DNA of 44,096 bases from an uncultured Xenococcaceae cyanobacterium (GCA_937996665.1 CALKUU010000120.1:1-44096), one strand, 5' to 3'; shown: positions 13,160 through 42,172, counted from the first letter of the stretch. Numbers and translations are program-made. The notes: a model not told the origin generated them from the letters alone.

Positions 13160-13171
13160 TTATTCGCATGA
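13160..13171 (+). promoter_or_regulatory. Shared upstream element a (TTATTCGCATGA)
   Basis: Matches the 12-bp element found before many genes of this region. It ends 83 nt before the ATG of the exported-protein gene at 13255 and has the same orientation. It overlaps a possible earlier ATG (13168), which argues against that start. Confidence 0.55.
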
Positions 13172-13254
13172 AAATCTGGTTTTCTTTTAAAGCAATTCGT
13201 AAAAATATAAAAGTCCAGCAAAAAAGTTTTGAGTTTCGCACCAAGGAGAGAGCT

Positions 13255-13758: not shown

Positions 13759-18146
<4,388 letters not shown>

Positions 18147-18149
18147 ATT

Positions 18150-19522: not shown

Positions 19523-19535
19523 GAGTAGCCTTTTC

Positions 19536-21368
19536 ATGTATGAAGATGACAATTGCCTAGAATGGTTAAACAATCATACTCAACTAGAACGTCACAATAA
19601 CGCTAGCTTCGTAGAATGTATGCGTTGGATGAGAATACCGAAAAAAATCATTGAAGATACAAGGGGTCTAACAAGAGAACAAGTAACACTCAATGGAGTT
19701 AACAAACAATACAACATTGATTCCCAACTCAAGTTACTTCAAATTGCTACAGAAAATGCTAATAATTTTACTGATAAGAACAAAGAATATTTAGAAATCC
19801 TCAACAAAAGAATTAAAAATATAGCGGGAGAAGAAAATACGTTTAACGCCGAATGTTTATGGCGTACTAGAGTTGGAGGGCACAGGGGAGCAGAAAATAT
19901 TCTACTTCCTGCATTCGATCATTTAGGAATTCCTTTCATTCCTTCCAGTACTTTAAGAGGAATAGCCCGAAATCAAGCTTTACTAGAACTGGGTAGCGAT
20001 CTAGAAGTATCTAAATATTTTGGCTCTTTAGAAGTAGATAGTTCAAACAAAATGGGTAAGGTAATATTTTTAGATGCATATCCAACAGCTGGAAAGTGGC
20101 GTAAAAACAACATATCTTTGGACATTGCAAATAACATTTGGGAATGGAGTGGCAACAACATCATCTATAAACCTAATCCCAACACATTTATTTCTTTGAG
20201 TAAAGCAGGATTTCTAATCGGATTAAAACCAACTAATAAATGCGAACCAGCACATCTTGAGAAGGTAAAAAGTTGGTTAAAACAAGGCTTGCTAGCTGGA
20301 GTAGGTTCGCAAATTAATTCTGGTTACGGAGAAATAAAGATTAAAGGAGAATCTGAAACAAACGAACCATTTCTTGAAGTAGGATTTACTCTTCAGAGTC
20401 AATTTATTCACGGTAATCAGAGATTTAATGATCTTCGAGAACCATATAAAAAGGTAAGAGGAGAAATAAAAAGAAGCAGAGATAAAATTCCTCAAACAAA
20501 TACCAGTTCACAGCCAGAAGTTCGACCTATCGCTTTTAAGTCAATGCTGCGTTACTGGTTCCGTACAATTACCCTTGGCTTTATTTCTGTTGAAGATGTC
20601 AAACAGTTTGAATCTCACCTATTTGGTTCCATTGAACCCCAAAATAGAGGGTGGGTGAAATTTAGAGTTTCTGGAGGAAATAAAGTTATCCCCAATCAAG
20701 AAGATCGTCCTTGTGGAATACAAAGAGGTAAACTCAAACTATATTATTCCTCAGAAATTAAATCTTCAAATAAAGAAATAGTACGGCAACTATTTATCGA
20801 TCTATCATGGCTAATGTTCCACTTAGGAGGAATAGGTCAAGGTTCAAGAAGACCATTATATAAACGCAGAAATAATCCATACTACCGAGGGAGTAAGTTA
20901 AGATTTACTAGCAATACATTAGAAACATCACCGACTAGCTACAAGGAATTTGCATCTCTATTTAGAGAAAAACTAAATAGTTTCCTCGAAAACTTAATGG
21001 TATTAACTGGAAAACAAGTAGAATTATCTTCTAATATTAATGATCATATTGAAGAAGCTTTTAATAGTAAGTGTGAAATTTTTGTTTATTCAGGAAAATA
21101 CGATCTACAGAAAAATAATGCACTAGAAATTTTACATGATGACAAGGAGTACCATTCAATAAATGATAGAGGTAAAAAAATCTACAATTCAGAGCTTTGT
21201 GGAGGAAATGGGAATCCTTCTCCAGTTTGGATTGCAGGATTAGATAACTATCAAGTAATAACCATTTTCGGTTCAAATACAGGATTAAGAAAAGATTTTG
21301 CGGGAAAACTAAAAAATAATAAGGATAAGTGCTTACAAGTATTTCCTGTTAAAAATTCTCAATTATAG
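19536..21368 (+). CDS. cmr6: Cmr6-Cmr1 fusion protein, type III-B
   Basis: A 610-residue protein with two RAMP modules. The first (to about residue 270) is Cmr6-like: LWRTRVGGHRGAEN, GIPFIPSSTLRGIARNQALL, and the Gly-rich loop LLAGVGSQINSGYGEIKI. The second (about 275-610) is Cmr1-like: a new start FTLQSQFIHGN, then RPIAFKSMLRYWFRTI and FESHLFGSIEPQ, and LGGIGQGSRRPLYKRRN. No separate cmr1 exists in the operon, so the fusion should supply both 3'-end cap subunits in one chain. A GGAG precedes the ATG, 13 bp after cmr5. The fused arrangement would put Cmr6 and Cmr1 next to each other, as they are in known complexes. Confidence 0.8.
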   Translation: MYEDDNCLEWLNNHTQLERHNNASFVECMRWMRIPKKIIEDTRGLTREQVTLNGVNKQYNIDSQLKLLQIATENANNFTDKNKEYLEILNKRIKNIAGEENTFNAECLWRTRVGGHRGAENILLPAFDHLGIPFIPSSTLRGIARNQALLELGSDLEVSKYFGSLEVDSSNKMGKVIFLDAYPTAGKWRKNNISLDIANNIWEWSGNNIIYKPNPNTFISLSKAGFLIGLKPTNKCEPAHLEKVKSWLKQGLLAGVGSQINSGYGEIKIKGESETNEPFLEVGFTLQSQFIHGNQRFNDLREPYKKVRGEIKRSRDKIPQTNTSSQPEVRPIAFKSMLRYWFRTITLGFISVEDVKQFESHLFGSIEPQNRGWVKFRVSGGNKVIPNQEDRPCGIQRGKLKLYYSSEIKSSNKEIVRQLFIDLSWLMFHLGGIGQGSRRPLYKRRNNPYYRGSKLRFTSNTLETSPTSYKEFASLFREKLNSFLENLMVLTGKQVELSSNINDHIEEAFNSKCEIFVYSGKYDLQKNNALEILHDDKEYHSINDRGKKIYNSELCGGNGNPSPVWIAGLDNYQVITIFGSNTGLRKDFAGKLKNNKDKCLQVFPVKNSQL

Positions 21369-21384
21369 CGATCTCATATACTCC

Positions 21385-21396
21385 TGATTCGCATCA
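21385..21396 (+). promoter_or_regulatory. Shared upstream element b (TGATTCGCATCA)
   Basis: Perfect dyad TGAT-TCGC-ATCA ending 77 nt before the ATG at 21474, in gene orientation. It lies 17 bp after the cmr6-cmr1 stop, so the small gene has its own promoter region. Confidence 0.6.
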
Positions 21397-21473
21397 AATA
21401 CAAATATTTTAAACTTCTTGCAATTTAGAATTACGTTGCCAATTCAATCTTTAATTACTGTCAGGATTAAGCA

Positions 21474-21975: not shown

Positions 21976-23754
21976 ATGTCGATTTTAATTGCAAATATTG
22001 GTACGTCTGATTTGTCCGTTTCTATTGATGGACATTATTATCCAATTGGTTTCGACCGGAATGAAAGAAATCTTGATTATAAAAGTCTTACAGAGGAGAA
22101 AAAAAAACTTTGGAATAATAGGGATAAAGAAATAGCCTTAAAACTTTGTCCAGAGTTAGGAATAGAGCCGAAGACAATAAATAACGATAAAGGTGAAATT
22201 GTAGGATATCGTTTTAGTTTTAGACAATTGACCAAAAGAATATGGGAAGAGTATCAAAAAGAATACAAAAAAGGTTCATCCACTTGGAAAAAGCGTCTTG
22301 CAGTCGGTAGAATTGGAGGAGTAATTGAAAAAGCTAAAAATAAGTTCAGCCTAGAAAAAGCATATATTTTTGTCACGGATCAATCTACAGAAGATCAACC
22401 TGAATATCATCCCGACGATACTTGTTATCTGTTTAAGCTACTTGACGCAATCACAAATATCAAGCTAGAAGCTATTCCGATTAAAGATAATGCGGTAGAT
22501 GCTGATAGCCTTTTGGAAAAGTATTATGATTTTTTTAGTCAGAATATATCAGATTCAGCAACTATTCTAGTGAGTATCAAAGGTGGAACTCCCCAAATGC
22601 AAACAGCATTGAAAATGCAAGCTACTGCATCTGGTATTCCAAACTTACTATTTCTAGATCCTCAGTTAAATCTTAGTAAAGCTCTTAAAGGAGAGTGTTC
22701 TGAATGTGCCGTTACATCTTATTGGCGATATCTAAGAACTCAAAAGTATCAGACAGTTAAACTTCTATTAAACCAGAGATGGGATTTTCAAGGGGCTAGA
22801 GTAATTCTAGAAGAGTGGCAAAAAAATCTTGATTTTTTGAAATCAAATCTCAAAGAAGCAAATACAGAAGAATTATCTATAGAAAAAGAAAATCTGAATG
22901 ATGTTGTAAAAAATTTAAACTGTGCTGTTGACTATCTAAATTTTGCTTCTGTTTCTACAGATAAAGGAAAACTGCATTCTATTCTCAACCTTTACACTCA
23001 GTGCCGTATTTACTGGACTCTCGATGAGATTGCTAATTTTTTACCAAGATTAGGTTCATTTTATGAGGAAGCTATACAATCACTTATCGTTCAGTTTGGT
23101 GGAGAGAAATACTGTAAGTATAAAAACAGAAACAAAAAGTGGACTTTGCTTAAAAGTAACCTAGTTTCAAACCAAAGTCTGCTGGAATTATTTGAAAAAG
23201 CAGAAAAAACGTTTATTTGGGACGAGAAAATTTGGCGGAGGAAAACTACCCCTAAAACTAAAGATGATAAGTCAGAAAAAATTGTAGGATACGAATTTAT
23301 TTTGCATGACGAGCATAGACTATCAAGTCGCTACAGAAAGAAAAGCTTTGCTGAGGCACTAATTCGCAACAGTAAAGATAAAAACTCTATTTTTCGTTGG
23401 GAGAAAATTGACAAGTCTCTCAATCGCCTAAATTATTGGGTAGATCAAAGAAACGATCTAATCCACGGGGTAAGAGGGCTTTCAAAATATAGCATGGAAG
23501 AGAAAAAAGATAATGACATTAGGGACTATAACAACTCATCCTTGGAGCATAAAGAAAATCCGTATCATCCCGATCCGAGCAAAAGTTGTGAATCTAATCA
23601 ACTTATTAAAGAGATGAGCGTTGTATGTCATCAGATCATCAGACTCTTTGGTATGGAAAAGAGTCCTTATGTCGATCTTAAAACCCCTGACATAGCCAAA
23701 TATTACCTATATTCAGATATTAGAGAGAAAGTAATTAATCAGTTGGATAATTAA
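21976..23754 (+). CDS. csm6: CARF-HEPN ribonuclease, Csm6/Csx1 type
   Basis: A 592-residue effector of cyclic-oligoadenylate signalling. The N-terminal CARF fold starts with LIANIGTSDLSVS, and its signature ligand loop ILVSIKGGTPQMQTALK covers about residues 197-213. A helical linker follows (about 250-450). The C-terminal HEPN domain carries WVDQRNDLIHGV with R492 and H497, the R-x4-H catalytic pair. In the known pathway, Cas10 makes cA4 or cA6, the CARF dimer binds it, and the HEPN dimer cuts RNA non-specifically. It lies 607 bp after the cmr operon, in the same direction, with its own upstream element. No ring nuclease gene is visible to switch the signal off. No Shine-Dalgarno is apparent. 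Confidence 0.88.
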   Translation: MSILIANIGTSDLSVSIDGHYYPIGFDRNERNLDYKSLTEEKKKLWNNRDKEIALKLCPELGIEPKTINNDKGEIVGYRFSFRQLTKRIWEEYQKEYKKGSSTWKKRLAVGRIGGVIEKAKNKFSLEKAYIFVTDQSTEDQPEYHPDDTCYLFKLLDAITNIKLEAIPIKDNAVDADSLLEKYYDFFSQNISDSATILVSIKGGTPQMQTALKMQATASGIPNLLFLDPQLNLSKALKGECSECAVTSYWRYLRTQKYQTVKLLLNQRWDFQGARVILEEWQKNLDFLKSNLKEANTEELSIEKENLNDVVKNLNCAVDYLNFASVSTDKGKLHSILNLYTQCRIYWTLDEIANFLPRLGSFYEEAIQSLIVQFGGEKYCKYKNRNKKWTLLKSNLVSNQSLLELFEKAEKTFIWDEKIWRRKTTPKTKDDKSEKIVGYEFILHDEHRLSSRYRKKSFAEALIRNSKDKNSIFRWEKIDKSLNRLNYWVDQRNDLIHGVRGLSKYSMEEKKDNDIRDYNNSSLEHKENPYHPDPSKSCESNQLIKEMSVVCHQIIRLFGMEKSPYVDLKTPDIAKYYLYSDIREKVINQLDN

Positions 23755-26337: not shown

Positions 26338-26811
26338 CTATAGGGAAATTAACTTGCAGCGACTGTTGCTCTTAGTAGCTAAATCAATTTCTTCATAAAG
26401 CTTTCCGACTAAATAGTCTTGCCAATCCTCACGGGCGAAAAATCGATCTGAAGTTACTAAAACCCAGTAGTAATCGATTTTGAGAAGGCTTCTTATGTTC
26501 GACATTTGAGGTTTCCGTGCAATTTGCATAGCAGAATAAGCTTTATTATCACTTTTCCTTAAAGCGATACCTATCCGAAAAAAGTTACCTTTTTGGTCTT
26601 CAAGACGAATCAAACTATCAATTCCTAAAAGTTTCCAGACCTCATTTAAGTTGCTTAGATCAGTTCCATAACTCAAAGCGTTAAGAAAATAGGGGGTGAG
26701 ATTATTAGCCATCATTAGTACTAAGCGATCCCAGCGAATATCCTCCGCACTAAAATCACTAATTTTGACTTCTTTAGCTAACTGACGAAATCTTAGTGTT
26801 TGTAAACTCAT
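26338..26811 (-). CDS. Conserved-looking cytoplasmic protein, unknown function
   Basis: A 157-residue protein without membrane segments. AGGAGAG lies 7 bases upstream of the ATG, a good ribosome-binding site. The sequence suggests an alpha/beta fold with a central strand segment (IDYYWVLVTSDRF) and a C-terminal helix (WQDYLVGKLYEEIDLATKS), but I recognise no family. It is followed by a terminator hairpin and points toward the MazG-like gene. A weaker copy of the shared element lies 206 nt upstream. Confidence 0.55.
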   Translation of the reverse strand: MSLQTLRFRQLAKEVKISDFSAEDIRWDRLVLMMANNLTPYFLNALSYGTDLSNLNEVWKLLGIDSLIRLEDQKGNFFRIGIALRKSDNKAYSAMQIARKPQMSNIRSLLKIDYYWVLVTSDRFFAREDWQDYLVGKLYEEIDLATKSNSRCKLISL

Positions 26812-27777: not shown

Positions 27778-28476
27778 CTAGAAGTAGTTCTTATAAAAGC
27801 CTTCGACAATAGATACCGACCAATCGATAAAAAAGTCTCCCATTGCGCCGTAGCCAAATTGCGTCCGCATATCTTCCGTGATTTCATTAATGGCTAAGTC
27901 CATCCCCATTCCTGCAAGGCTTTTTCCTTCGAATAGTGAAAATAAACCAGTAGTTATCCTTGAAGCATCTACCTCCGTAATATCATCTTGGGCACTAATG
28001 CCAGACTCTAACCACGCTTTGCCCGCAGCTAGCCAAAATTTATTCATAGGGCTAACGTAGTCAGAGTAAAGGCGATATTGAGACGATGCACTACCATAAT
28101 TAACTACATCAAGATAGATATAGCGATCATGGTCGCTAGGTTGCACTATTAGTAACTCTGTTGCTGTACCGCTATTGTCTTGGGTATCAATTTTCTGGAA
28201 ACCGTCATCGTACTCATAAGCGGTAATATCAAAATCTGAGCGATCGCTATCGTTGTGTAAAGTAAAGACGCCAAAGGTATAGGCTGGAACTAAATATTTG
28301 TAGTACGTCTTTTCTTTAGATGAAAGAGTGCCGTAGTAGCTACGATATTGTGGATCGTATTCTGTATATTCTTGGGAGAAAGCCATGGTGGGAAAAGCAA
28401 GACATATACAAGCTGCGATGGCGACTTCGGTAAACTTACGAACTGTTTGTTGGCAAATATTAGGTACTGTATTCAT
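27778..28476 (-). CDS. Exported protein with a PPC-like beta domain
   Basis: A 232-residue protein with a signal peptide (VAIAACICLAFPTMAFS, cleavage near FS-QE). Residues about 50-135 look like a bacterial pre-peptidase C-terminal (PPC) beta-sandwich: YYKYLVPAYTFGVFTLHN, SDFDITAYEYDD, YIYLDVVNYGSASSQYRL. The C-terminal third is helical. PPC domains are secretion and adhesion modules rather than enzymes. The shared upstream element lies 72 nt upstream. It likely forms a transcription unit with the exported protein downstream. Confidence 0.55.
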   Translation of the reverse strand: MNTVPNICQQTVRKFTEVAIAACICLAFPTMAFSQEYTEYDPQYRSYYGTLSSKEKTYYKYLVPAYTFGVFTLHNDSDRSDFDITAYEYDDGFQKIDTQDNSGTATELLIVQPSDHDRYIYLDVVNYGSASSQYRLYSDYVSPMNKFWLAAGKAWLESGISAQDDITEVDASRITTGLFSLFEGKSLAGMGMDLAINEITEDMRTQFGYGAMGDFFIDWSVSIVEGFYKNYF

Positions 28477-28548
28477 AATCTCTTTGTTTGCTCCATAAAT
28501 CTTCTACCCAGTTATTAAAGAGCAAAGAATGTCATATCTTTTCAGAGA

Positions 28549-28560
28549 TGATGCGATTGA
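28549..28560 (-). promoter_or_regulatory. Shared upstream element g (minus strand TCAATCGCATCA)
   Basis: 72 nt upstream of the ATG at 28476, in gene orientation, with the CG extension (CGTCAATCGCAT) seen at several other sites. Confidence 0.6.
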
Positions 28561-28663
28561 CGACTTCTTGAAAGTGAAAATTTTATTACAATATGATTTG
28601 ACATATGATGCAAACAACAAGCAGATTTTAAAAGTGGCGAGTAAAGGTAATATTTATTGACTT

Positions 28664-29586: not shown

Positions 29587-29676
29587 AACTACTTATTGCC
29601 CATTTGAATATATTAATTTTATCATATGGACAAAAAAGCTGGTTTGATGAGAATGACAATAAAACAACATCAAGAG

Positions 29677-32169
29677 CTAACTAGTATAGTTTTTGCAGAT
29701 ACTGTTGGCTAAATTATCAATCTTAGCGATTAATTCTTTGGGCTGCTTTACTTTTACGGCTCCACCAAATCCTAAAATCCAACGGAGAAAGTCGTAATCC
29801 TGAATTGACCATGTTGGAAAATTGACTGTAAATTTATTTGGGAAATTGAGATCGTTTGTTTTTTCTAATTGGAATATTTTTTCTAACTTGAGTCCTTTTT
29901 GCTTCTCACGTAAATCTTCTTCAGATAAATCTGTTTTTGGAAGCTCAAACTTCAAATTTTCATAATATGTTTGTAAAGTATAAATTTTAGGGATATCCAG
30001 TTGAGGATTGCTCCGTGGGTCGGTCATTTGAATTCCCTTATATCTTTTCATTCCTTCTAGAATGAAAGGATAGATTTCATTAGTGAACCATAGCTCAATT
30101 TTAGTTTTAGCAATAGCTTTGTTATTGAGCCACTTTTGCTGTAGATCTTTATTCCCAAGAAAAATCCCTGGACAAGCATTATACAACTTATTAATATTTT
30201 TTATGGATTGGCTGAATTTTTTATCTTTTGTCAAGTCTCCTTCATTTTCAAACTGCTTTAATAGCTTTAATCTATCCAATCTTTCAAATTTATATAATCC
30301 TTGTTTTTCTCCATCAGCGTATTCTAAGCCTAAGTACCAAGCTATATTGTGAAACAAAATTAATAGGGGATAAGCTTCAAAGTCTTGATGTTGTTCCTTA
30401 ATATCGATGTGCTTTCCAGAACCTTTGAGATAGCTTAATTTCAGCTTATTTTTATGAGCGATTGCATTTTCAATAATTTGAAGATTATCTTTTCTGGCAA
30501 GACTATCTCCAGGAAGAAATTCATAATCAACTATTGAACTAATTCCAATTTTCCTTATTGGCTCTCTTTTTTGAATATCTATTGCTTTGCTACCAAGACG
30601 ACTTTCAACCTGAGAATATATCTCATCGGCGACTAATTCATCGACATAATCTTTATGGGGCAAAATCATTCTTTCGTATATATCTTCCAATTCCATTTTG
30701 CTAAAAAGTGCTGTGCCGATGAAATATCCCTTATCCATAGTTTTATCTGATAATATTTGATATTTTTTTAGATGCTGTTGAACGTCTTTTCTGAAATTAT
30801 GTCCGAAATATTGGATTTCTTTGGCAATTTCCACTCCAGATTTATAAAAGATATTACCTTTTTGTTCCCCCGTAATATCTATGTTCTTTAAAAGCATTTT
30901 AAATGCTAAGACATATCGCAAAGGGAAGCTTACTTCCTGCGTCTTCTTCAGATTATCTATTTTTGCTTCAAATCTATTTATTTCTTGTTTATTCAATTTT
31001 ATTTTTGCTTTCTCTTTTGATTTTTCGAGTTTTCTAAACTCTTCGTCTAGTAGCTTTTTTTGAATTTCTTCTAGAGATTCATATAAATTATTTTTAATTT
31101 GATTATCCAGGCAGTTTTCTTCAATTTCCCACTCTACATTCTCTATAATGTCATTCTTATTGGCAATAAATACAGGGGAATGACAAAGAAAACGAATTAC
31201 CTCTAACAGTCTTATAAAAGATTTCTTCTTAGAGAAACAATGACAAAATATATAATCATCTAGGCTTATATCTGGGAGAATTTCTAGATAAATATTTTTA
31301 TAATCCTTTGCATATTCATGTGTAAAATAATTTTCATTTAACCATTGTATATCTCTAGAAATTTCTTTTTGAGAGCTATAAATTTTTCCATATTTATTTT
31401 GCATTAATTCACAGATAGATTCAATTGACTCAATACCTGGATTATTTAGAATTAAGGAAATTAAATATATGAGACGTTCAAAATCTAATAACTTTGAATA
31501 TTGATGCCATTGACCTTTGCCCTGTTGATTTTGCTTACTTTGTAAACTGGCGATAAGACGATCAACAGCTAATTCTTCTGCAAAAAGTCTAGGAATATCG
31601 TATTTTTCGATAACAGTTTTAGTTTTGTGCCGACTTCCAGAAGGTAGTTTTTCTTTCCTTTTAATCGATACATAATATTCTGGAGGCGACAGTTGAAATA
31701 ATTTAATAAAGCCTTCTCCCGTTTCGATAGGAAATTTTTCTAATGACTTATTAAATTCTTCAATCACTTCATCTGGTACATGACGATCGCGTTTTTGATT
31801 CCATTCCTTACAAGTCTCAACAGGAGTTTGTAGATGCCAAGCTACCCAATAAACTTGTGGTGCATCAATTTCTTGTAGTTTCTCCTCGATCTTCATTAAC
31901 ATACCCATACGCCAATCTCGACGGATATTAGTAGCATCGTAAATAACGGGTTTTCCAGAGGAGATCGCATTTTGAATCTGCTTCAAAATTTCTGGCTCAA
32001 CCTCCTTTGCCCAATCACCTTGAATAGATTCGTCGTCAAAGAGCTTTTCTCTGGCTGTATCAGTAGAAACGATCGCTGTGTTGGGAATCATTTCCTGTAG
32101 CCTTCGAGCAAAAGTAGATTTACCACTAGCAGGAAGTCCAATTAGAAAGTGACAAATAAGTGGAGCCAT
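29677..32169 (-). CDS. P-loop kinase-WYL domain fusion, putative regulator
   Basis: An 830-residue two-part protein. The N-terminal ~170 residues are a P-loop kinase of the polynucleotide-kinase/zeta type: FLIGLPASGKSTFARRL (G11-K17-S18) and VIYDATNIRRDWR, a lid-like segment. A long, Lys-rich helical middle follows. The C-terminal ~300 residues contain a WYL domain (LKLSYLKGSGKH, then LILFHNIAWYLGLEYADGEK) and a WCX-like end (FTVNFPTWSIQDYDFLRWIL). WYL proteins often regulate defence genes and sense nucleotides or nucleic acids; the kinase part is unusual for them. No classical helix-turn-helix was identified with certainty. It carries the shared upstream element 65 nt upstream, divergent from the nuclease gene. 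It is a natural candidate for the regulator of that element. Confidence 0.75.
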   Translation of the reverse strand: MAPLICHFLIGLPASGKSTFARRLQEMIPNTAIVSTDTAREKLFDDESIQGDWAKEVEPEILKQIQNAISSGKPVIYDATNIRRDWRMGMLMKIEEKLQEIDAPQVYWVAWHLQTPVETCKEWNQKRDRHVPDEVIEEFNKSLEKFPIETGEGFIKLFQLSPPEYYVSIKRKEKLPSGSRHKTKTVIEKYDIPRLFAEELAVDRLIASLQSKQNQQGKGQWHQYSKLLDFERLIYLISLILNNPGIESIESICELMQNKYGKIYSSQKEISRDIQWLNENYFTHEYAKDYKNIYLEILPDISLDDYIFCHCFSKKKSFIRLLEVIRFLCHSPVFIANKNDIIENVEWEIEENCLDNQIKNNLYESLEEIQKKLLDEEFRKLEKSKEKAKIKLNKQEINRFEAKIDNLKKTQEVSFPLRYVLAFKMLLKNIDITGEQKGNIFYKSGVEIAKEIQYFGHNFRKDVQQHLKKYQILSDKTMDKGYFIGTALFSKMELEDIYERMILPHKDYVDELVADEIYSQVESRLGSKAIDIQKREPIRKIGISSIVDYEFLPGDSLARKDNLQIIENAIAHKNKLKLSYLKGSGKHIDIKEQHQDFEAYPLLILFHNIAWYLGLEYADGEKQGLYKFERLDRLKLLKQFENEGDLTKDKKFSQSIKNINKLYNACPGIFLGNKDLQQKWLNNKAIAKTKIELWFTNEIYPFILEGMKRYKGIQMTDPRSNPQLDIPKIYTLQTYYENLKFELPKTDLSEEDLREKQKGLKLEKIFQLEKTNDLNFPNKFTVNFPTWSIQDYDFLRWILGFGGAVKVKQPKELIAKIDNLANSICKNYTS

Positions 32170-32234
32170 GAATAATGTATTTTCTAGAGGTTGGTTACGA
32201 TGCTACAAGTCATAATTTTAAATATCTCTAGTTT

Positions 32235-32246
32235 TGATGCGAATCA
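32235..32246 (-). promoter_or_regulatory. Shared upstream element h (minus strand TGATTCGCATCA)
   Basis: Perfect dyad, 65 nt upstream of the WYL-fusion start at 32169. It is 42 bp from element i, which faces the opposite way toward the nuclease gene. Confidence 0.65.
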
Positions 32247-32288
32247 CGAAAATTAATAGACATTTTTTAAGATCGAGCTAATTACTCG

Positions 32289-32300
32289 TCATTCGCATGG
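32289..32300 (+). promoter_or_regulatory. Shared upstream element i (TCATTCGCATGG)
   Basis: 64 nt upstream of the ATG at 32365, with the CG extension (CGTCATTCGCAT) also seen at element j. It is the divergent partner of element h. Confidence 0.65.
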
Positions 32301-32364
32301 AACATATTTAAGTCTTAAGTTAAGTCATATATTTTGGTAATTGTCGTTGGTTGAGGTAAGTCTT

Positions 32365-33327
32365 ATGACAATTACTACATCGGTTGTTACCAAATCTCTA
32401 GCTGTTTCTATCTTAGGTATTTCAATTCCTTTGACTCTCTCCCAAAGTAATTTTGGTTCTGCTTTCGCTGGCTTTGTAGGAGGAGCAACCGCAGCAACTG
32501 TAGTTAGCAAATCAACTGATAGTCGCAAAAAAAACAAGAAAGAAGAAATTTCAACTTTAGTACAGCCAACAACCTTAGAACTGGAAGACAAACCAATTGA
32601 TATTTCCACGCTAATAGAACCATCGACATCAAAAGAGCAACTAAACTTAGCAACCTTACTAGGACAACAAGGTATTAGCGTAATTGAGTCTCGCCGACCC
32701 CAAGCAAAAGATGAAGTGCTCGACCCTATTGCCGTTTATCTTGGCAAGCGTTACTCCCTAGTAGAGAAGTTGCAAAGAAAAATCAAGGCTAGCATCGCTC
32801 ACCAAAAAGATTTCACTTTTAATCTAAAAGGTAAAAGCCAGCAGGAAATCCAAAGTTGTACTCAATACTGCAATATGCTTGATAGAGCCAGCTTATTGGC
32901 TAAATATCACTACGACAAACGCAAAAAAATTATTCGTGGTAGCGTACAACGTCGTGGTGACATTATTAATTTCCTCAATGGCGGTTGGTTTGAAAGAGCA
33001 GTTTTGCATTCAGTAAAAGAAAAGTTTGCTGATGCAGACGAGATTGAGTTCTTGGTGAATCCTCAACTTAAGTTTGCTAATGGCGATCGCTTTGAACTAG
33101 ATATTATCTGTTTAGCGAAAAACCAACTATTCTGGATCGAATGTAAAACAGGCAACAATTACAATGATTGTCTTCCCAAATATTGCAGTCATGGAAAAAA
33201 ATTGGGAGTGCCCAAAGAAAATGCCTTTCTTGTGGGCTTAGGTTTGAGCGATCGCGATGCAGAGAAGTGGACTAAGCTTTGGTCTATTACTGTAGTCAAT
33301 CCCGAAGGATTGATGGAGACAATCTAA
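32365..33327 (+). CDS. Membrane-anchored DUF1887/Card1-like nuclease lacking a CARF domain
   Basis: A 320-residue protein. Residues about 6-48 are hydrophobic (SVVTKSLAVSILGIS ... GFVGGATAATVV) and should form one or two membrane helices. A polar linker with two similar STLVQP/STLIEP segments follows. The C-terminal ~120 residues are a PD-(D/E)XK nuclease of the DUF1887 type found in Card1/Can2: NGGWFERAV (E210), DRFELDIICL (D246), FWIECKTGNN (E259-x-K261). The CARF sensor that normally precedes this nuclease is absent. The start at 32365 has GAGG 8 bases upstream and is preferred over a TTG at 32341. Next downstream, after a terminator, is the DUF4407-PBP/RT/cas1/cas2 operon. How it would be activated is unknown. 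Confidence 0.75.
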   Translation: MTITTSVVTKSLAVSILGISIPLTLSQSNFGSAFAGFVGGATAATVVSKSTDSRKKNKKEEISTLVQPTTLELEDKPIDISTLIEPSTSKEQLNLATLLGQQGISVIESRRPQAKDEVLDPIAVYLGKRYSLVEKLQRKIKASIAHQKDFTFNLKGKSQQEIQSCTQYCNMLDRASLLAKYHYDKRKKIIRGSVQRRGDIINFLNGGWFERAVLHSVKEKFADADEIEFLVNPQLKFANGDRFELDIICLAKNQLFWIECKTGNNYNDCLPKYCSHGKKLGVPKENAFLVGLGLSDRDAEKWTKLWSITVVNPEGLMETI

Positions 33328-33353
33328 GGAAAATAAAAGTAAAAAATGATAAG

Positions 33354-33383
33354 GGAGTGAAGCAAATTGCTGCTCCTTTTTTT
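33354..33383 (+). terminator. Terminator after the membrane-anchored nuclease gene
   Basis: A stem formed by GGAG...CTCC and AGCA...TGCT (33354-33376) is followed by seven T. It separates the nuclease gene from the next transcription unit, which has its own upstream element. Confidence 0.7.
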
Positions 33384-33426
33384 GTTGTAATTTCTGATGA
33401 TTATAAGTTTAAGCCCAATATTAGCG

Positions 33427-33438
33427 TCATTCGCATCA
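33427..33438 (+). promoter_or_regulatory. Shared upstream element j (TCATTCGCATCA)
   Basis: 81 nt upstream of the DUF4407-PBP gene, in gene orientation. It probably also drives the RT, cas1 and cas2 genes that follow closely. Confidence 0.65.
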
Positions 33439-33519
33439 AGTAATAAAGAATCAAACTTAGTTATCGCTAATCTAATTTCTATGAGGCTTTATGCCAATTT
33501 TCAAAATAAGAATTAAGTC

Positions 33520-36500
33520 ATGAGAAGCGATCACAATCCTAATTTTATAACTCAATTTATTTGGTTTTGCTCGGGGGCAAACACAAAAGTATTAAAACAA
33601 GTGGAGTCAGAACATGGAAAATATGCCAATCAAGGATTTGCCATCTTTATTATTGGAGTTGTTGGGATGTTTACTGGTGGATACGCCATCTCCACAGTAT
33701 TTAGTAGTAGGTTAGTAATTTACGCTGGTGGAGCTTTGTGGGGTTTAATTCTCAGCAGTATAGATCGTTCTATGGTTTCTGGGTTTAATAAAAGGTCTAA
33801 TCCTTCTGTAAAGGAAAGAATTGGCGGAGCAGTATCTTTAATGGTTAAGTTAGGAATTTCGACTCTAATTAGTTTTACTGTTGCCAAGCCTCTAGAGTTA
33901 AAGATATTTGAATCTTCTATTGAAGCTCAAGCAGCTAAAAATATTGAAGTAGAAATTGATAAATATAGCCAGCCAATAATCAATCAATATCAGCTAGAAA
34001 TAGATAAATTAGAAGGAGAGAAACAACAACACAATCAAGAATTAAGTGATTTCCAACTGCAACTAGAACAAACTGAAGATGCTTATCAAAAAGAATTGCT
34101 CGAAGGTGGTTTTGGCAGAGACAGAGGTTATGGAAGTGTTGCTAAACAATTAGAGAAATCTGTAGAACAAGCACAGCAAAAATACGACCATAAAGAACAA
34201 ACTCTTAGGAGTTTAATTGGAGAAAAAGAACAGCAAGTAACGAATTTAAGAGCAGATCGTCAAGAAAAACTGAGTGAAATAGAACGAGAAGTTAAGGAAG
34301 AGCAAACAGCTACAGATTTCGTGGCTCGACTTCATGTATTGCATCAGATTCAAGCCGAAGAAGATAAAATTTTCTTAGATTTGGGAGTTTATGAGGCTAC
34401 GGGTTGGATAATTTCCCTTATCTTCATTCTGATCGATGCTTATCCGGTTATCAATAAAATTTTCTCTCCAATTGATAATTATGAAAAACTTTTAGAAAAA
34501 CATCAACAGAAAGAAGATGAGTTCTCAGAATTAGTCCTTACAGAAGAATCCGAACTACAAAATGAAGGTTTTCTGGGAGAAATCGATCTAACTAGAGATA
34601 TAGAAAGAGGCAGATTTACAAATAGAAAAGAACTAATACCCAAACAATTAGCTAATGAAAGTAAACAGCAACAAAAAAAAATTGATATTCATAATACTTT
34701 TACATCTCAGGGAATTGAAAATCTTCAAACCTTTTTGGAGTCTTATGGAAAAAAGTGTCAAGAAATTGGATTAGAAAATCTTGAGGATGCAGATCGCTTA
34801 TCCCAATTAAGGAAGATAAGAAATGAATACACTAAAACTTATATCGACTTTGCACCTAATTTCTTTTCCAATTTGGAGGAAATAATAAAAAAAAATTTGT
34901 TTTCCCAAAACAAAAACTATAGCGATCATCCACGGGATCGTTTTACGCCAAGTCAGCATTCCTACGATCAGAGTTCAAAAACATACGCAACCGAAGAGCT
35001 TAAGAACTCTGAACTTGTCAAAAGTAATATTCCTAGCTACAGAAATCAAAAATCTCAGCTAGCAGAAAATTCGAAACGATCTGGATGGATTAACCCCATA
35101 TTAAAAATTTCGGGAATAGTTTTAACCCCTCTAGCTTTGTGGTTAGGGGCAGAAACCATAGCTGTTTCTAAAATAAAAATTGACCCCATTCCCTATCCTC
35201 AAGAAGCTAGCTCCCACTTGGTTTATACTTCTGACGCATCAGAGCTGAGAAACCCTAAATCTTGGAAAACTTCAGCTCGCGAGCTAGATTTGGAAGAATT
35301 CTCTCCCACTTTACAGCAAGCTTTACTCGCATCTGAAGACAGACGTTTCTACGAACATAACGGTTTCGATCCCTATGGAACTTTGAGAGCATTAGTGCGG
35401 ACATTATCTGGAAATAAACAAGGAGGAAGCACTATTACCCAGCAAGTAGCAAAGAAATTATTTATAGAGCAAAAATACGAAAATCTGCCTGAATTAAGAA
35501 AAAAATTACAACAAATTGTCTTAGCGATTCGCTTGGAACGTAATTACGAAAAGGATGAAATTCTCAAAACCTATCTCAATCGAATTTATCTCGGTCACCA
35601 AAAAGGTCGGGCTTTAATTGGCTTTGAAGAAGCAGCACAATTTTATTTTGGTAAGTCTGCACGAGATTTAAATATTGCCGAATCTGCAACCTTAGTAGGA
35701 ATGCTGCCCAGTCCCAGTATTTCCAACCCTATTCAAAATTTAGAATTAGCAAAAAAAATGCGGGATAGCCGTATTCAGCAACTTTTAAATTTGGGAAATA
35801 TTACTCAAGAAGAAGCAAAACAAGCATTAGAGTCAGAAATAGAGATCGAAATTCAGTCTCACAATTATCCTGATACTCTTGCTCCCTATGCCTATGATCG
35901 CGTGATGAAAGAACTAGCTAATATTTTGGGCGAGGATTTAGCTAATTCGGGGCAGTTCATTGTCAAAACTACTTTAAATAATGATTACCAATTGGCAGCC
36001 GAACAAACTTTAGAAACAGAATTACAAACTCAAGCTTCTTTAAAAGGCTATCAGGAAGGGGCCTTGGTGACTATAGATTCTCAAACGGGAGCTATCTTAG
36101 CCTTTGTTGGCGGAATTGGAACGAACTATCCAGTCAATTATGCTTCTGAAGTTAAACTATCACTTGCTTCAACTTTCAAATTAATTCCCTATACTGTCGC
36201 GATTACGAAGGGATTTAGCCCTAACGATAAGTTGTCCTGCGCTTCCTGGCAAGGTGAAGATAAGTATACAATCCCTGCTTGTCGCCATGGTGATGGCGAA
36301 TTAACGCTGACAGAAAGTTTAGCGAGATCGGAAAATCCGCCAGTGTTACGTTTGGTCGAACAAGTAGGTCTGGAATCAATTGAGAAATTGAGTAAAGATT
36401 TGGAATTAGATCTTGACCTAGAAAAGATAAAAGATACCAAAGGTTATCACCAGCAGTTGGCTTTAGGTACCTATGGTTCGACGGTTTTAAATATTACTAA

Positions 36501-36972
36501 TGCCTATGCTGCGATCGCCAATCAAGGAATATTTAATCGACCTCACATCATTGAGACAATAATCGATCGCAATAACTGTAAAAATCCAGAACAATTAAAC
36601 TCCTGTAAAGTCATTTATTCCGCTAGAGATCGCTTTCCAGAAAAATCCGTAGTAGATTCTCAAGTAGTGGGAGAAATCAATCAAATGCTCCGTAAAGTAG
36701 TCACCGAGGGGACAGCCACCGAAACGCTGATGAGCAATGTACCTGAATTGATTAGCGATTATGACACTTTAGGGAAGACTGGAACGAGTAAAGACAATCG
36801 GGATCTTTGGTTTATTGGCTCTCTACCAGAAAACAACCTTACCACGGGAGTTTGGCTTGGACAAAGTTGTGTTGAAGAAGCTAATAAACAAAAGTACTGT
36901 AACTCTACAAAAGGCAAAAGCTCTCTTTCTGTGACTTTGTGGGCTAGATATATGAAAAAAGTTTTGCGCTGA
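33520..36972 (+). CDS. DUF4407 membrane protein fused to a bifunctional penicillin-binding protein
   Basis: A 1150-residue fusion. Residues 1-310 are DUF4407-like: membrane segments near 40-60, 65-80 and 103-122, a long coiled coil (about 125-270), and a fourth segment (GWIISLIFILIDAYPVI). After a polar stretch, a further membrane helix near 530 leads into a class A PBP. The glycosyltransferase has LLASEDRRFYEHNGFDP (E606) and GGSTITQQVAKKLF; the transpeptidase has STFK (S884, K887), SEN (937-939) and KTGT (1086-1088). All catalytic motifs are intact. Such PBPs polymerise and cross-link peptidoglycan. The fusion to a coiled-coil membrane protein, just before RT-cas1-cas2, is unusual. The ORF is uninterrupted, so the fusion is not an assembly of two frames. 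Confidence 0.82.
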   Translation: MRSDHNPNFITQFIWFCSGANTKVLKQVESEHGKYANQGFAIFIIGVVGMFTGGYAISTVFSSRLVIYAGGALWGLILSSIDRSMVSGFNKRSNPSVKERIGGAVSLMVKLGISTLISFTVAKPLELKIFESSIEAQAAKNIEVEIDKYSQPIINQYQLEIDKLEGEKQQHNQELSDFQLQLEQTEDAYQKELLEGGFGRDRGYGSVAKQLEKSVEQAQQKYDHKEQTLRSLIGEKEQQVTNLRADRQEKLSEIEREVKEEQTATDFVARLHVLHQIQAEEDKIFLDLGVYEATGWIISLIFILIDAYPVINKIFSPIDNYEKLLEKHQQKEDEFSELVLTEESELQNEGFLGEIDLTRDIERGRFTNRKELIPKQLANESKQQQKKIDIHNTFTSQGIENLQTFLESYGKKCQEIGLENLEDADRLSQLRKIRNEYTKTYIDFAPNFFSNLEEIIKKNLFSQNKNYSDHPRDRFTPSQHSYDQSSKTYATEELKNSELVKSNIPSYRNQKSQLAENSKRSGWINPILKISGIVLTPLALWLGAETIAVSKIKIDPIPYPQEASSHLVYTSDASELRNPKSWKTSARELDLEEFSPTLQQALLASEDRRFYEHNGFDPYGTLRALVRTLSGNKQGGSTITQQVAKKLFIEQKYENLPELRKKLQQIVLAIRLERNYEKDEILKTYLNRIYLGHQKGRALIGFEEAAQFYFGKSARDLNIAESATLVGMLPSPSISNPIQNLELAKKMRDSRIQQLLNLGNITQEEAKQALESEIEIEIQSHNYPDTLAPYAYDRVMKELANILGEDLANSGQFIVKTTLNNDYQLAAEQTLETELQTQASLKGYQEGALVTIDSQTGAILAFVGGIGTNYPVNYASEVKLSLASTFKLIPYTVAITKGFSPNDKLSCASWQGEDKYTIPACRHGDGELTLTESLARSENPPVLRLVEQVGLESIEKLSKDLELDLDLEKIKDTKGYHQQLALGTYGSTVLNITNAYAAIANQGIFNRPHIIETIIDRNNCKNPEQLNSCKVIYSARDRFPEKSVVDSQVVGEINQMLRKVVTEGTATETLMSNVPELISDYDTLGKTGTSKDNRDLWFIGSLPENNLTTGVWLGQSCVEEANKQKYCNSTKGKSSLSVTLWARYMKKVLR

Positions 36973-37020
36973 GAATTATTGATATCTAAAGGGAAGGGGG
37001 GATTTCCAATAGCTTTTAGC

Positions 37021-37050
37021 ATTGAGGAGTATGTTAATTATTCCTCAATT
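37021..37050 (+). promoter_or_regulatory. Hairpin immediately before the RT start
   Basis: ATTGAGGA and TCCTCAAT pair (8 bp) around an AT-rich loop. The only Shine-Dalgarno-like GAGG near the RT start lies in the left arm, so folding could control RT translation. A short out-of-frame ATG (37031) lies in the loop. Confidence 0.35.
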
Positions 37051-37053
37051 ATT

Positions 37054-38013
37054 ATGTCAACTATAGTTAAGGATTTTCTTACTCCAGCAAATTTTGAGCA
37101 AGCCTGGTACAAGGTTAGAGATAATAAGGGCTGTGCGGGAATAGACGAAGAAACTATAGAAGAATTTGCTCTAAACCTAAAAGCTAATCTTGCTGGTTTA
37201 AGAAATGCGGTAACCCAAAATACTTATCAAGTTAAACCACTTAAACAAGCTTTAATTCCTAAAGGCGGCGGAAAGTTAAGAGAGTTAAGAATTCCTAGTA
37301 TTAGAGATCGAATTGTTCAGCAAGCTTTATTGAATGTTCTTGTCCCAATTATTGAGCCAACTTTTTCTGACTCTAGTTTTGCCTATCGTCCCAATCGCTC
37401 TATTATCAAAGCAGTTGAAAGAGTTGCAGAGTGGCGAGATCGCAGATATGTCTGGATATTAGACGCGGATATTGTTAAATTTTTTGACAACATAGATCGT
37501 CAAATCTTGCTTACTCAAATAAGGCGATATATAGATCATCCTGGGATTTTATGTTTGCTCAAAGCCTGGATCGCCTCAGACATTGTCACGAACCAAGGCA
37601 TCAAAAAAACGGATAGAGGGATTCCTCAAGGCGCAGTAATTTCACCTTTGCTGGCGAATATCTACTTGAACAAATTTGATAAGGATATTTCTCAGAATAA
37701 TGTGCAGCTAGTTCGCTATGCAGATGATTTTTTGCTTCTAGCAAAATCTAGAAACGAAATTTTGCAGGCTTATACAGAAGTAGTCAAGTTATTACATAGC
37801 TTAAATTTAGCAATCCACCCGGAAAAGACTCAAATTACAAATTTTGAGCGGGGATTTCGTTTCTTAGGTCATGGCTTTATGAACAATAATATTTTTCCGT
37901 TGGAAAGTCCTAGAGAAAAAGCTAAAGCTGCAAAAAAAAAATTCTTTGCTCGGAAAAAGAAACGCCTGAAAAGACGGAGAAAGCTGGATATAAAAAACAG
38001 ACAAAGGAAATAG
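37054..38013 (+). CDS. CRISPR-associated reverse transcriptase (group II intron-like)
   Basis: A 319-residue reverse transcriptase with ordered RT motifs: NKGCAGIDEETI, PKGGGKLRELRIPSIRDRIV, SSFAYRPNRS, the first catalytic Asp in WILDADIVKFFDNI, RGIPQGAVISPLLANIYL, the YADD active site (VRYADDFLLLA), then KTQITNFERGFRFLGHGF. No maturase or endonuclease domain follows; the C terminus is very Lys/Arg-rich. It lies 41 bp upstream of cas1 on the same strand, so it is a stand-alone CRISPR RT rather than an intron ORF. RTs of this kind let Cas1-Cas2 take spacers from RNA. The start at 37054 matches family length; a TTG at 36979 would add 25 unrelated residues. It is 81 bp after the PBP fusion and probably in its operon. 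Confidence 0.88.
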   Translation: MSTIVKDFLTPANFEQAWYKVRDNKGCAGIDEETIEEFALNLKANLAGLRNAVTQNTYQVKPLKQALIPKGGGKLRELRIPSIRDRIVQQALLNVLVPIIEPTFSDSSFAYRPNRSIIKAVERVAEWRDRRYVWILDADIVKFFDNIDRQILLTQIRRYIDHPGILCLLKAWIASDIVTNQGIKKTDRGIPQGAVISPLLANIYLNKFDKDISQNNVQLVRYADDFLLLAKSRNEILQAYTEVVKLLHSLNLAIHPEKTQITNFERGFRFLGHGFMNNNIFPLESPREKAKAAKKKFFARKKKRLKRRRKLDIKNRQRK

Positions 38014-38054: not shown

Positions 38055-39059
38055 ATGGCAACACTTTACCTGTTGGAGCAAGGAACAAGTTTATTTAAGG
38101 AAAATCTTCGCTTTATTATCCATGTACCCAAAAAGGATAAATTTGAATTGCCAATTAGGGAAGTAGAAAGAATTTTGCTCTTTGGGAATATTAATCTTTC
38201 TACTCCTGCGATCGCAGCTTGTTTAGAATCCTCAATTAATGTTTTGTTCCTTTCTCCTTCTGGTCGCTACAAGGGTCATATTTGGAATAAGGAAAACTCT
38301 AACCTCAATGTAGAGTTACTGCAATATAAACATCACAATAGCTTTGAATTTAGATTAGAAATTTCAAAAGCGATCGCCAAAGGTAAACTACAGAATTCTA
38401 GACAGTTGTTACTTAGATTGAATAGACAGCATAAAAATCAAATAGTTCAAAAAACTGTCAGCGATATTTCTTCTGATATTGAAGCGATTAACTTAGCAAA
38501 AGATATAGATAGCATTAGAGGCTATGAAGGCATTAGTGCTGCAAGATATTTTCCAGCGATAGGAGAATTACTTAACAATTCAGATTTTGATTTCTGCCAA
38601 CGTCATCGTCAGCCACCTACCGATCCAATTAATGCATTGCTTAGTTTTGGTTATACTCTTTTATTCAACAATGTTCTTAGTTTAATTATTGCAGAAGGTC
38701 TATCGCCTTATTTTGGCAACTTCCATTATGGTGAGAAGAAAAAACCTTATCTTGCTTTTGATTTGATGGAAGAATTCCGCTCTCTAATTGTGGATAGTCT
38801 AGTTGTGAAACTGATTAACAATCGAATTCTCAAGAAAGAAGACTTTGAAGAAATTAGCGATCGCCAAGGCATCTTCTTAAAAGATGTAAGTAGAAGAAGA
38901 TTTCTCAATGAGTTTGAAAAAAGAATGAAGGAAAAATCTACACATCCTGTTTTGGATTACCAACTGTCTTATAGAGAAATTATTCAGCTTCAAATTAGGC
39001 TTTATAAAAGGTGTTTATTATCAGATAGTGCGTACGAACCTTTTTTACGTGCAGCATAA
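38055..39059 (+). CDS. cas1: CRISPR integrase Cas1
   Basis: A 334-residue Cas1 with its active-site residues in place: E158 in RGYEGISAARYFPAIGELL, H224 in GLSPYFGNFHYG, and the acidic pair D236/E239 in FDLMEEFRSLIVD. With Cas2 it captures protospacers and inserts them at the leader end of an array. GGAG lies 8 bases before the ATG, and the stop overlaps the cas2 start (TAATG). Together with the upstream reverse transcriptase it forms an RT-Cas1-Cas2 adaptation module, of the kind tied to type III systems. It most likely serves the III-B system and array 2. Confidence 0.95.
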   Translation: MATLYLLEQGTSLFKENLRFIIHVPKKDKFELPIREVERILLFGNINLSTPAIAACLESSINVLFLSPSGRYKGHIWNKENSNLNVELLQYKHHNSFEFRLEISKAIAKGKLQNSRQLLLRLNRQHKNQIVQKTVSDISSDIEAINLAKDIDSIRGYEGISAARYFPAIGELLNNSDFDFCQRHRQPPTDPINALLSFGYTLLFNNVLSLIIAEGLSPYFGNFHYGEKKKPYLAFDLMEEFRSLIVDSLVVKLINNRILKKEDFEEISDRQGIFLKDVSRRRFLNEFEKRMKEKSTHPVLDYQLSYREIIQLQIRLYKRCLLSDSAYEPFLRAA

Positions 39060-39334
39060 TGTTGGTAATTGTTGTTTATGATATTTCTGATAATAAACGA
39101 CGTACTAAGCTTGCCAATTTTTTGGAAGGCTATGGCAGAAGAGTTCAATATTCTGTATTTGAGTGTTTTCTTTCCTATTCTCAGGTAGAAGCCCTTTATG
39201 AAAAGGTACAAAAGAGAGTAAAACCAGAAGAGGATAACGTCAGGTTTTATTGGATTTCAAAAAAATGTGCCGAAAAAACTTTAACTATCGGCAGCGATCT
39301 TCCTGAACAACCTCCCAACTATTATATAGTCTAG
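39059..39334 (+). CDS. cas2: CRISPR adaptation protein Cas2
   Basis: A 91-residue Cas2 with the ferredoxin-like start MLVIVVYDISDNKRRTKLA, the conserved strand end FLEGYGRRVQYSVFEC, and a C-terminal NYYIV strand. It bridges two Cas1 dimers in the integration complex. It starts within the cas1 stop (one-base overlap), so it is coupled. Its stop lies 5 bp from the stop of the convergent gene at 39340, leaving no room for a terminator. Confidence 0.93.
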   Translation: MLVIVVYDISDNKRRTKLANFLEGYGRRVQYSVFECFLSYSQVEALYEKVQKRVKPEEDNVRFYWISKKCAEKTLTIGSDLPEQPPNYYIV

Positions 39335-39822: not shown

Positions 39823-40243
39823 AAATACATTCCTATCTAATAATTATTTTTCAAGAATCTTTAAATTAATATCGGTGATAAATTAATATATTTTCTTGAC
39901 ATCCATATTGTATATATTGATTTAGAATGAGATTTAACATTCATGCGATTGACGAATATATTATTTAGATAATCGTCATATCCTTATGTGAGTTAGAGTA
40001 TTATTCATGGCGTTGATAAGTGTGTAATGTTCAAGAAAAAGCGGAAACATCATGAAATCTCAAATAGTTTAAAAGTAGACTGATTGAATAATTAAGAAAG
40101 TCCAGTGATTTAGAGTAACAAAAAGTTTATAGACGTTTCTATTCATAAGGTCAATTAATCATGCAAGAAGTCTACTAAGTAAAAGCTAAAATTAAATATT
40201 TTTTTAACTCAGCTATTCAGTGAGGTTGAACTGTTACTAAGCT
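39823..40243. other. 421-bp intergenic region
   Basis: Very AT-rich. It contains shared element k (39941-39952) for the exported-protein gene on its left and the 3' end region of the Nif11 gene on its right. Only frames of a few codons were seen, no RNA gene and no strong hairpin. Confidence 0.6.
39941..39952 (-). promoter_or_regulatory. Shared upstream element k (minus strand TCAATCGCATGA)
   Basis: 118 nt upstream of the exported-protein gene at 39822, in gene orientation. It has the same CGTCAATCGCAT extension as element g, which precedes another exported-protein gene. Confidence 0.6.
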
Positions 40244-40852: not shown

Positions 40853-42172
40853 TTAAGCGGAGAACTTAGTATCCTGAGCAATATCTTGCATAATCGATTC
40901 TAGAGGAGTAAATTCATCCGCGTAGACTAATAAATTTTTGCTAACAGCAGTTGATTTAGCAATTACTGTAACCCTGACATCCATTTTCTCTTTAACTCTT
41001 TTCACAGCGGGAAATAAATCCCCATCTCCTGATACGATAGTGACGAAGTCACCAGGCTTAACATCTCTGACTAAATCGATCGCTAACTGCACATCATCTC
41101 CAACAGTTTTAGGTTTATCATTGTCTCTGAAAACAATGGGGAGAGTCTTAGTTTGGTAACCTATTTTCCGTAGTTTTTTATATTTATAAGCCTGATTGGG
41201 AAATGCACCATCGTACAGTTTAACTTCCTTGCTTACATCTTTGTTTAAAAGAGTCCATAGAGCCTCATAGTCTATTTTGATGCCTTCTTTCTGAAGACAC
41301 TTATAAAGATTGTTGTTATCGATATAGCAATAGTTATGTAGCTTACGAGGAGCAACAAAATTTTTGAGTACAGGAGACTTTACTTTGTTTTTGGCAGCTT
41401 CAGTGATCGCTTTATCTCTAATAACCTTTTGAAAAATCGGCTTCTGAGATTCCTTTTCGGATAATTTCTGTATGTTTTCGAGCTTCTGAATTCGCGACAA
41501 ATTGCGGTTTTGGTTGGCTTGTTGGCTGTTGGATCTAGATTGCAATTTTAATAGCTTTTTAGAATGAGTTTTTGCCTGAAGCTTAGAGCGACTAATCTCT
41601 CGCTCTTGTTGCTGTTGTTGGCTTTGCAAATCCACGAGCTGTTGCCCTTGTTCGGTAAATTTTGTATCTACCTGGTGAACGTCAAACTGTAATCGCTCGA
41701 TTTCGAAGAAGTTGCGATCATTTTTTTCTTGGCTAGTATGTAGTTCTGCTTTAACTTCGCAATAAAGCTGCTGATTGTTTAGCTTACATACCTCAATCTC
41801 TTGGTTTTGTTGACGGAGATTATTGTCAGTTTGCTGGACAATTTCTCGCAAATCGTCGATATTCTCTGCGTTTTGCTTGTATTCTTGTATCAGAGTAGAT
41901 AGAGAATTTTGTAAGGATACGCTGTTAAATTGCTCCTTGTCTGCGTTTTTGATAACAATGTCGTGAAGAGTACTCACTTTTCCTTCTAGCTTGGCAATGA
42001 TAGTTTGATACTGGCTATCTCTCTGTTGTCTTTCCTTTTTGTCCTGGGACATTTGAGCAAAAGCACACCCAAAAACTCCCATATTACCTACATAAGTAAG
42101 TTGAGGATTGTTAGCCATCATCCCTGCAACTGAGATGGAACCACCAATTAGTAAAGAAGTTAAGCTATTCAT
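40853..42172 (-). CDS. Membrane-anchored coiled-coil protein with a NYN (PIN-like) nuclease domain
   Basis: A 439-residue protein. Residues 5-40 are hydrophobic (SLLIGGSISVAGMMANN, then TYVGNMGVFGCAFAQ), likely one or two membrane helices. Residues 45-245 are a long Gln/Lys-rich coiled coil. The C-terminal NYN domain (about 278-415) shows the acidic metal site: YCYIDNNNLYKC (D285), VGDDVQLAIDLV (D359/D360, D366) and TIVSGDGDLFPAV (D383, D385). NYN/LabA-type proteins are RNases of the PIN superfamily. GAGAGG lies about 8 bases before the ATG, and the shared element is 108 nt upstream. The layout (membrane, spacer, nuclease) parallels the DUF1887-like protein at 32365. Expected function: RNA cleavage at the membrane, trigger unknown. 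Confidence 0.78.
   Translation of the reverse strand: MNSLTSLLIGGSISVAGMMANNPQLTYVGNMGVFGCAFAQMSQDKKERQQRDSQYQTIIAKLEGKVSTLHDIVIKNADKEQFNSVSLQNSLSTLIQEYKQNAENIDDLREIVQQTDNNLRQQNQEIEVCKLNNQQLYCEVKAELHTSQEKNDRNFFEIERLQFDVHQVDTKFTEQGQQLVDLQSQQQQQEREISRSKLQAKTHSKKLLKLQSRSNSQQANQNRNLSRIQKLENIQKLSEKESQKPIFQKVIRDKAITEAAKNKVKSPVLKNFVAPRKLHNYCYIDNNNLYKCLQKEGIKIDYEALWTLLNKDVSKEVKLYDGAFPNQAYKYKKLRKIGYQTKTLPIVFRDNDKPKTVGDDVQLAIDLVRDVKPGDFVTIVSGDGDLFPAVKRVKEKMDVRVTVIAKSTAVSKNLLVYADEFTPLESIMQDIAQDTKFSA

Follow-up and report, generated by a model that had tools for sequence, protein, structure and literature searches.

A DUF4407-class A PBP fusion gene in a cyanobacterial type III-B CRISPR locus, preceded by a candidate regulon motif

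Type III-B CRISPR systems with RT-cas1 adaptation genes have been described (Silas et al. 2017, PMC5513706), and the locus analysed here resembles them in having a Cmr operon, a separate reverse transcriptase (RT), cas1, cas2, a CARF-HEPN gene, a WYL gene and an array. It lies in contig C120 of a 4.15-Mb cyanobacterial assembly, and the whole contig, 44,096 bp long, is called the window below. On the plus strand are the effector genes cas10(cmr2)-cmr3-cmr4-cmr5-cmr1/6 (13759-21368), a gene for a membrane-anchored Card1-type PD-(D/E)XK nuclease (32341-33327), the group II-like, CRISPR-associated RT gene (37054-38013, ATG at 37054), cas1 (38055-39059) and cas2 (39059-39334), the last two assigned by Pfam, and a CRISPR array with 18 repeats up to the contig end (42820-44096). 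The CARF-HEPN (Csx1/Csm6-like) gene is at 21976-23754, and the minus strand encodes an AAA (kinase-like)-WYL/WCX protein (29677-32169) and, adjoining the array, an NYN-domain protein with a long coiled coil (40853-42172). Several small secreted proteins and a RES/Xre toxin-antitoxin pair also belong to the locus. However, unlike the systems of PMC5513706, this locus embeds a cell-wall synthase, a DUF4407-class A PBP fusion encoded at 33520-36972 on the plus strand.

Some of the neighbouring genes deserve a mention on their own account. The Card1-type nuclease has an N-terminal TM segment in place of CARF, and its relatives are present in 30 of the 391 Cyanobacteriales genomes; two of those examined adjoin NYN genes. 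For a CRISPR-associated NYN ribonuclease, a function in crRNA trimming has been suggested (PMC11346440). Furthermore, a secreted 232-aa protein (27778-28476) and a 157-aa protein (26338-26811) recur near other cyanobacterial RT-cas1 loci (L098, L110).

Regarding the fusion itself, the initial annotation had proposed an uninterrupted frame joining DUF4407 to a complete PBP with intact catalytic residues, and this was confirmed. The gene is a single ORF of 1150 aa with an ATG start, and all three of its domains exceed the Pfam gathering cut-offs. DUF4407 (PF14362) occupies residues 24-328 (33589-34503; E about 8e-47 to 8e-48) and scores 160.3 bits against a cut-off of 31.3, matching positions 2-296 of the 297 in the profile, and it is a member of this family both by score and by full-length match. 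The Transgly domain follows at residues 586-753 (GT51 glycosyltransferase, 35275-35778; E 1.6e-53) and the transpeptidase at residues 847-1105 (36058-36834; E 8e-26). The catalytic E606 and the STFK (884), SEN (937) and KTGT (1086) motifs are invariant across 34 aligned PBPs, and in the same alignment the GT51 domain has ED at 606-607 and GGSTITQQ at 635. The protein has both hallmarks of a class A PBP, that is, a GT51 domain with its catalytic Glu and a transpeptidase with SxxK, SxN and KTG. Its base composition does not set the gene apart from its neighbours, and there was no Rfam match.

With known class A PBPs (PBP1A, TIGR02074; PBP1b, PDB 3fwl) the fusion shares the order of GT51 and transpeptidase, all the catalytic motifs and the TM helix before the glycosyltransferase, but it differs from them in bearing the DUF4407 module. 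Its best family match is PBP1A, although at 402.7 bits it stays below the 508.75-bit cut-off of NCBIfam TIGR02074 and is therefore outside that family. Its identity to the main cyanobacterial PBP1 orthologues is no more than 39-42%, whereas these reach 55-84% with a reference member. Actually, it is a fourth class A PBP and is distinct from the orthologue of the common cyanobacterial PBP1 that its genome has on contig C344.

The N-terminal module has the signatures of DUF4407 proteins (YA--T-F, DR and PLE-K-FE) together with their four TM helices and coiled coil. Such proteins are usually 350-450 aa long and stand alone, in Bacteroidota and cyanobacteria, or are joined to an SPFH-type region of about 650 aa; very few papers in the literature searched mention DUF4407 by name. 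In cyanobacteria we also saw DUF4407 genes beside or fused to SPFH (Band_7) genes and beside TPR-CHAT, DUF4384 and GUN4 genes (L305-L323, L119-L121). The initial description of this part was a four-helix coiled coil, but the profile, the hydropathy and the AlphaFold2 prediction for residues 1-520 (pLDDT 80.7 on average and mostly over 90 to residue ~330) describe it better as four TM helices bearing a long coiled-coil hairpin, formed by helices 131-195 and 206-262. A fold search with DUF4407 gave coiled-coil-type matches only, and Foldseek returned nothing with an E of 0.001 or below.

The linker (34504-35091) is modelled as all-helical, with falling confidence that is low after residue ~460, and a fifth TM helix (residues 524-550, 35092-35163) is seen in the hydropathy profile. 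This helix stands just in front of GT51 and would place the PBP in the periplasm; with an odd number of TM helices the protein has, as far as sequence can tell, an N-terminal anchor and enzymatic domains that lie beyond the membrane. The positive-inside rule predicts a cytoplasmic location for the N terminus and the linker, and a periplasmic one for the hairpin and the PBP. No strands and no CARF/SAVED fold were predicted in the linker by AlphaFold2, at low confidence beyond residue ~460, and neither Pfam nor PADLOC matched CARF/SAVED or another ligand domain in the fusion. It thus shows no sign of the ligand domain that defines the type III effectors activated by cyclic oligonucleotides. Signalling domains (kinase, receiver, CARF) were likewise not found by Pfam.

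Both domains are known; nevertheless, neither their fusion nor any CRISPR regulon that includes a class A PBP was found in the literature searched, which covers only a minority of subscription papers and preprints. Peptidoglycan and penicillin are not mentioned in PMC11229360, nor is peptidoglycan in PMC5513706.

The fusion is rare. DUF4407 is present in 27 of the 391 Cyanobacteriales genomes and is joined to a PBP in only two, the one studied here and a Trichodesmium MAG (JAKQYF010000090.1). The latter copy surfaced in a scan of genome contigs with a DUF4407 alignment, being the only one of the 80 loci kept in which the domain was joined to a PBP, whereas a single-protein query gave no match. 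It encodes 1171 aa (L177:2177-5692) with all three domains and the same five-TM plan, and is collinear with our protein over its full length at 34% identity, which rules out a chimera of assembly or frame. The other 61 genomes searched of the Trichodesmium family lacked the fusion, and no other was found among 27 genomes of the window's family. Plasmids gave PBP-only matches and one weak DUF4407 match, and viral contigs gave one DUF4407 protein and no relative of the fusion. The two fusions form one clade in the PBP tree (100/98 support) and one in the DUF4407 tree (100/99), although they are long branches in both, which makes their exact placement unsure. In the PBP tree they stand apart from the same genome's housekeeping orthologue (C344, L124).

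At both sites there are relatives without the gene. In a sister locus (G396) RT-cas1-cas2 stands beside AAA-WYL, Xre and RES, the fusion is missing, and AAA-WYL is ~0.2 kb from RT-cas1-cas2 against 4.9 kb in the window. Similarly, a Trichodesmium relative (G615) has 0.5 kb between the flanking homologous segments, which are 4.6 kb apart in the fusion contig. Therefore, the fusion is an accessory and probably mobile gene, and its family, in addition to being rare, seems to move horizontally. We found no convincing terminal repeats common to the two insertions. A ~90-bp interspersed palindromic repeat (CAGGACTTACGCAA..., L261 1851-1940), possibly a MITE, precedes the Trichodesmium fusion and is also present at other places in a relative.

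The association with CRISPR does not recur. We examined 28 other RT loci, namely 27 in other genomes of the order and the sister locus, some of them on short contigs, and none had a PBP or DUF4407 gene, which rules out a conserved CRISPR accessory gene. A conserved pairing of the Card1 nuclease with the fusion was also discarded, because 20 Card1-like loci had neither DUF4407 nor a PBP. The Trichodesmium copy is away from cas genes: none was found on its 19.9-kb contig, of which 2.2 kb are visible on the 5' side, nor was a CRISPR array seen there or the motif described below found at comparable strength. Its neighbours encode Tubulin_2, VWA, periplasmic-binding, STAND-like ATPase and GUN4 proteins, which are kinds of protein known from the conflict systems of multicellular prokaryotes (PMC7159879). 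It had been set beforehand that finding the architecture elsewhere without CRISPR neighbours would refute the link to CRISPR, and the only other copy is of this sort. The tie to CRISPR that the initial annotation had drawn is nevertheless partly supported, since in the window itself a perfect copy of the locus motif precedes the fusion while RT-cas1-cas2 has none of its own.

This motif, CGTCATTCGCATCAA (also written CGTSATTCGCATVRA), is 15 bp long, and the lead to it was given by an inverted repeat. No description of it was found in the literature searched. Most of the transcription units from 13 to 42 kb (13158-42300) have it upstream, and eight matches with up to two mismatches occur in the window, where 0.52 are expected and none of 100 shuffles reaches eight. 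The copy before the fusion (33425-33439, plus strand) has no mismatches and ends 80 bp before the ATG. The others precede the Cmr operon (13158-13172, plus; two mismatches, overlapping the first listed ATG), the CARF-HEPN gene (21383-21397, plus; about 590 bp upstream), the gene of the 232-aa secreted protein (28548-28562, minus; two mismatches), the Xre/RES pair (29644-29658, minus; two mismatches), AAA-WYL (32234-32248, minus), the Card1-type nuclease (32287-32301, plus) and the gene of a 160-aa secreted protein (39940-39954, minus; one mismatch). All copies lie between genes or at the start of a gene, point towards the gene downstream and are mostly 54-132 bp before its start codon; the NYN gene and two more ORFs have weaker sites in front of them. 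The fusion, therefore, has the motif at the promoter distance and in the orientation that mark the regulon of this locus. With a leave-one-out model its site scores 19.2 bits, above all 1.6 million background positions, and when the model is built from outside sites it comes fifth among the 88,148 positions of the window, a ranking that is partly dependent on the window since the outside sites were found with the window model.

Beyond the window, the whole genome (4.15 Mb) has ten sites with up to one mismatch, five of them in the window contig and two on contig C309. At two mismatches there are 49 sites against 65 in the reversed control, so single weak sites elsewhere in the genome are meaningless. 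In the sister locus the sites are at corresponding places: AAA-WYL, Xre and the cas10 gene are each preceded by one, and another follows RES. In three other cyanobacterial type III-B or RT-cas1 loci the motif precedes a WYL-type TIGR03985 gene (the further motif loci are L362, L363, L098:7015, L099:7201 and L109:12785). We consider the motif a candidate CRISPR-regulon operator of cyanobacterial type III-B loci, including those with TIGR03985 WYL genes.

The strongest alternative to a role in CRISPR immunity is that the fusion, as an accessory wall synthase, is a passenger of a plasmid or defence island and is reached by a regulatory element that is replicon-wide. We regard this as a serious possibility, if a rather doubtful one. 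It would explain why the association with CRISPR is seen once and the other copy lies outside CRISPR, and contig C309 (L362) also favours it. This second cas1-bearing contig encodes NYN, TraG/VirD4 and TniQ proteins, a protein with an L7/L12 C-terminal domain and several small secreted proteins, and its motif copies precede secreted-protein and conjugation-type genes; for this reason the regulon may be that of a plasmid or island and not one of CRISPR in itself. C309 and the window are perhaps one replicon. Nevertheless, five further loci or contigs with CRISPR have sites of at least 18 bits, against not one such site in 813 kb of non-CRISPR cyanobacterial loci, and in the same window the restriction-modification and helicase genes at 0-12 kb have no copy in front of them; both results argue against a mere passenger.

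As to what may bind the motif, WYL proteins are known as regulators of defence islands and, in Synechocystis, of a CRISPR locus (PMC9122601). As with BrxR (PMC9122601) and Sll7009 of Synechocystis, our locus encodes a WYL-domain protein, and a motif is repeated close to the promoter of that gene and to those of others. However, BrxR binds paired inverted repeats at two sites, whereas here single 15-bp sites stand before about ten units and AAA-WYL is only a candidate binder. Actually, naming it as the binder is a guess, because it is not a TIGR03985 protein, the resemblance between the two being marginal, and because, among the 12 TIGR03985 genes examined, the motif precedes just 3.

The fusion is on the same strand as RT-cas1-cas2 and 81 bp from RT, as first reported. 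RT-cas1-cas2 has no motif site of its own, including none before RT, and the 81 bp contain no intrinsic terminator with a T run. A terminator-like match at 37021-37049 (plus) is an 11-bp hairpin immediately before the RT start codon, followed by TATTATG (z -5.8 for 37015-37052). Between the Card1-type nuclease and the fusion there is a terminator-like hairpin with a T run (33352-33385, plus; -10.7 kcal/mol, z -2.8). A shared operon is plausible because the fusion has the motif while RT has neither a motif nor a T-run terminator before it, and a fusion-RT-cas1-cas2 transcript headed by the fusion is probably the simplest reading; the stable hairpin in the gap is a point against it.

Taking these observations together, the reading we prefer, at about even confidence, is that a mobile accessory peptidoglycan synthase was recruited into the type III-B CRISPR regulon, probably under AAA-WYL control, and would give extra wall synthesis on activation. 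The fusion would be a five-TM bifunctional class A PBP in which the DUF4407 part contributes a bundle of membrane helices and, in the periplasm, a long coiled-coil hairpin. Its recruitment is indicated by the sharing of CGTCATTCGCATCAA, through which AAA-WYL would probably act. When the locus is activated, the fusion would supply additional peptidoglycan synthesis at the envelope, as a wall and membrane arm beside the nucleases, and its presumed synthase activity in the periplasm may serve to strengthen or repair the envelope during defence.

It is improbable, instead, that the induced fusion is an abortive or dormancy effector that mislocalises or over-drives wall synthesis and so halts the growth of the infected cell. 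The RES/Xre pair, the Card1-type nuclease and CARF-HEPN nearby are typical growth-arrest effectors and type III loci do use membrane effectors (PMC11229360), but the catalytic residues of the fusion are all intact and a linker with no predicted CARF/SAVED fold offers no evident second-messenger switch. Least probable of all is an envelope-damage sensor whose DUF4407 coiled coil would perceive wall or membrane stress and signal to the CRISPR genes: the predicted periplasmic hairpin and cytoplasmic linker would suit it, as would the adjacency of cyanobacterial DUF4407 to SPFH, TPR-CHAT and GUN4 genes, but the fusion has no signalling domain and sensing needs no intact bifunctional synthase.

Extending the preferred recruitment reading, we tentatively suggest, as an unlikely generalisation, that some cyanobacterial type III-B loci are WYL-controlled regulons with an envelope arm: infection would induce secreted proteins and a DUF4407-tethered synthase that rebuilds or seals the wall, together with the nucleases and the acquisition of spacers. 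The motif makes the regulon idea directly testable, offers a way to learn what turns on the type III loci of cyanobacteria, and gives a functional context for the little-studied DUF4407. If true, a peptidoglycan synthase under CRISPR control would extend the reach of such loci beyond nucleic acids and membrane depolarisation to the synthesis of the cell wall.
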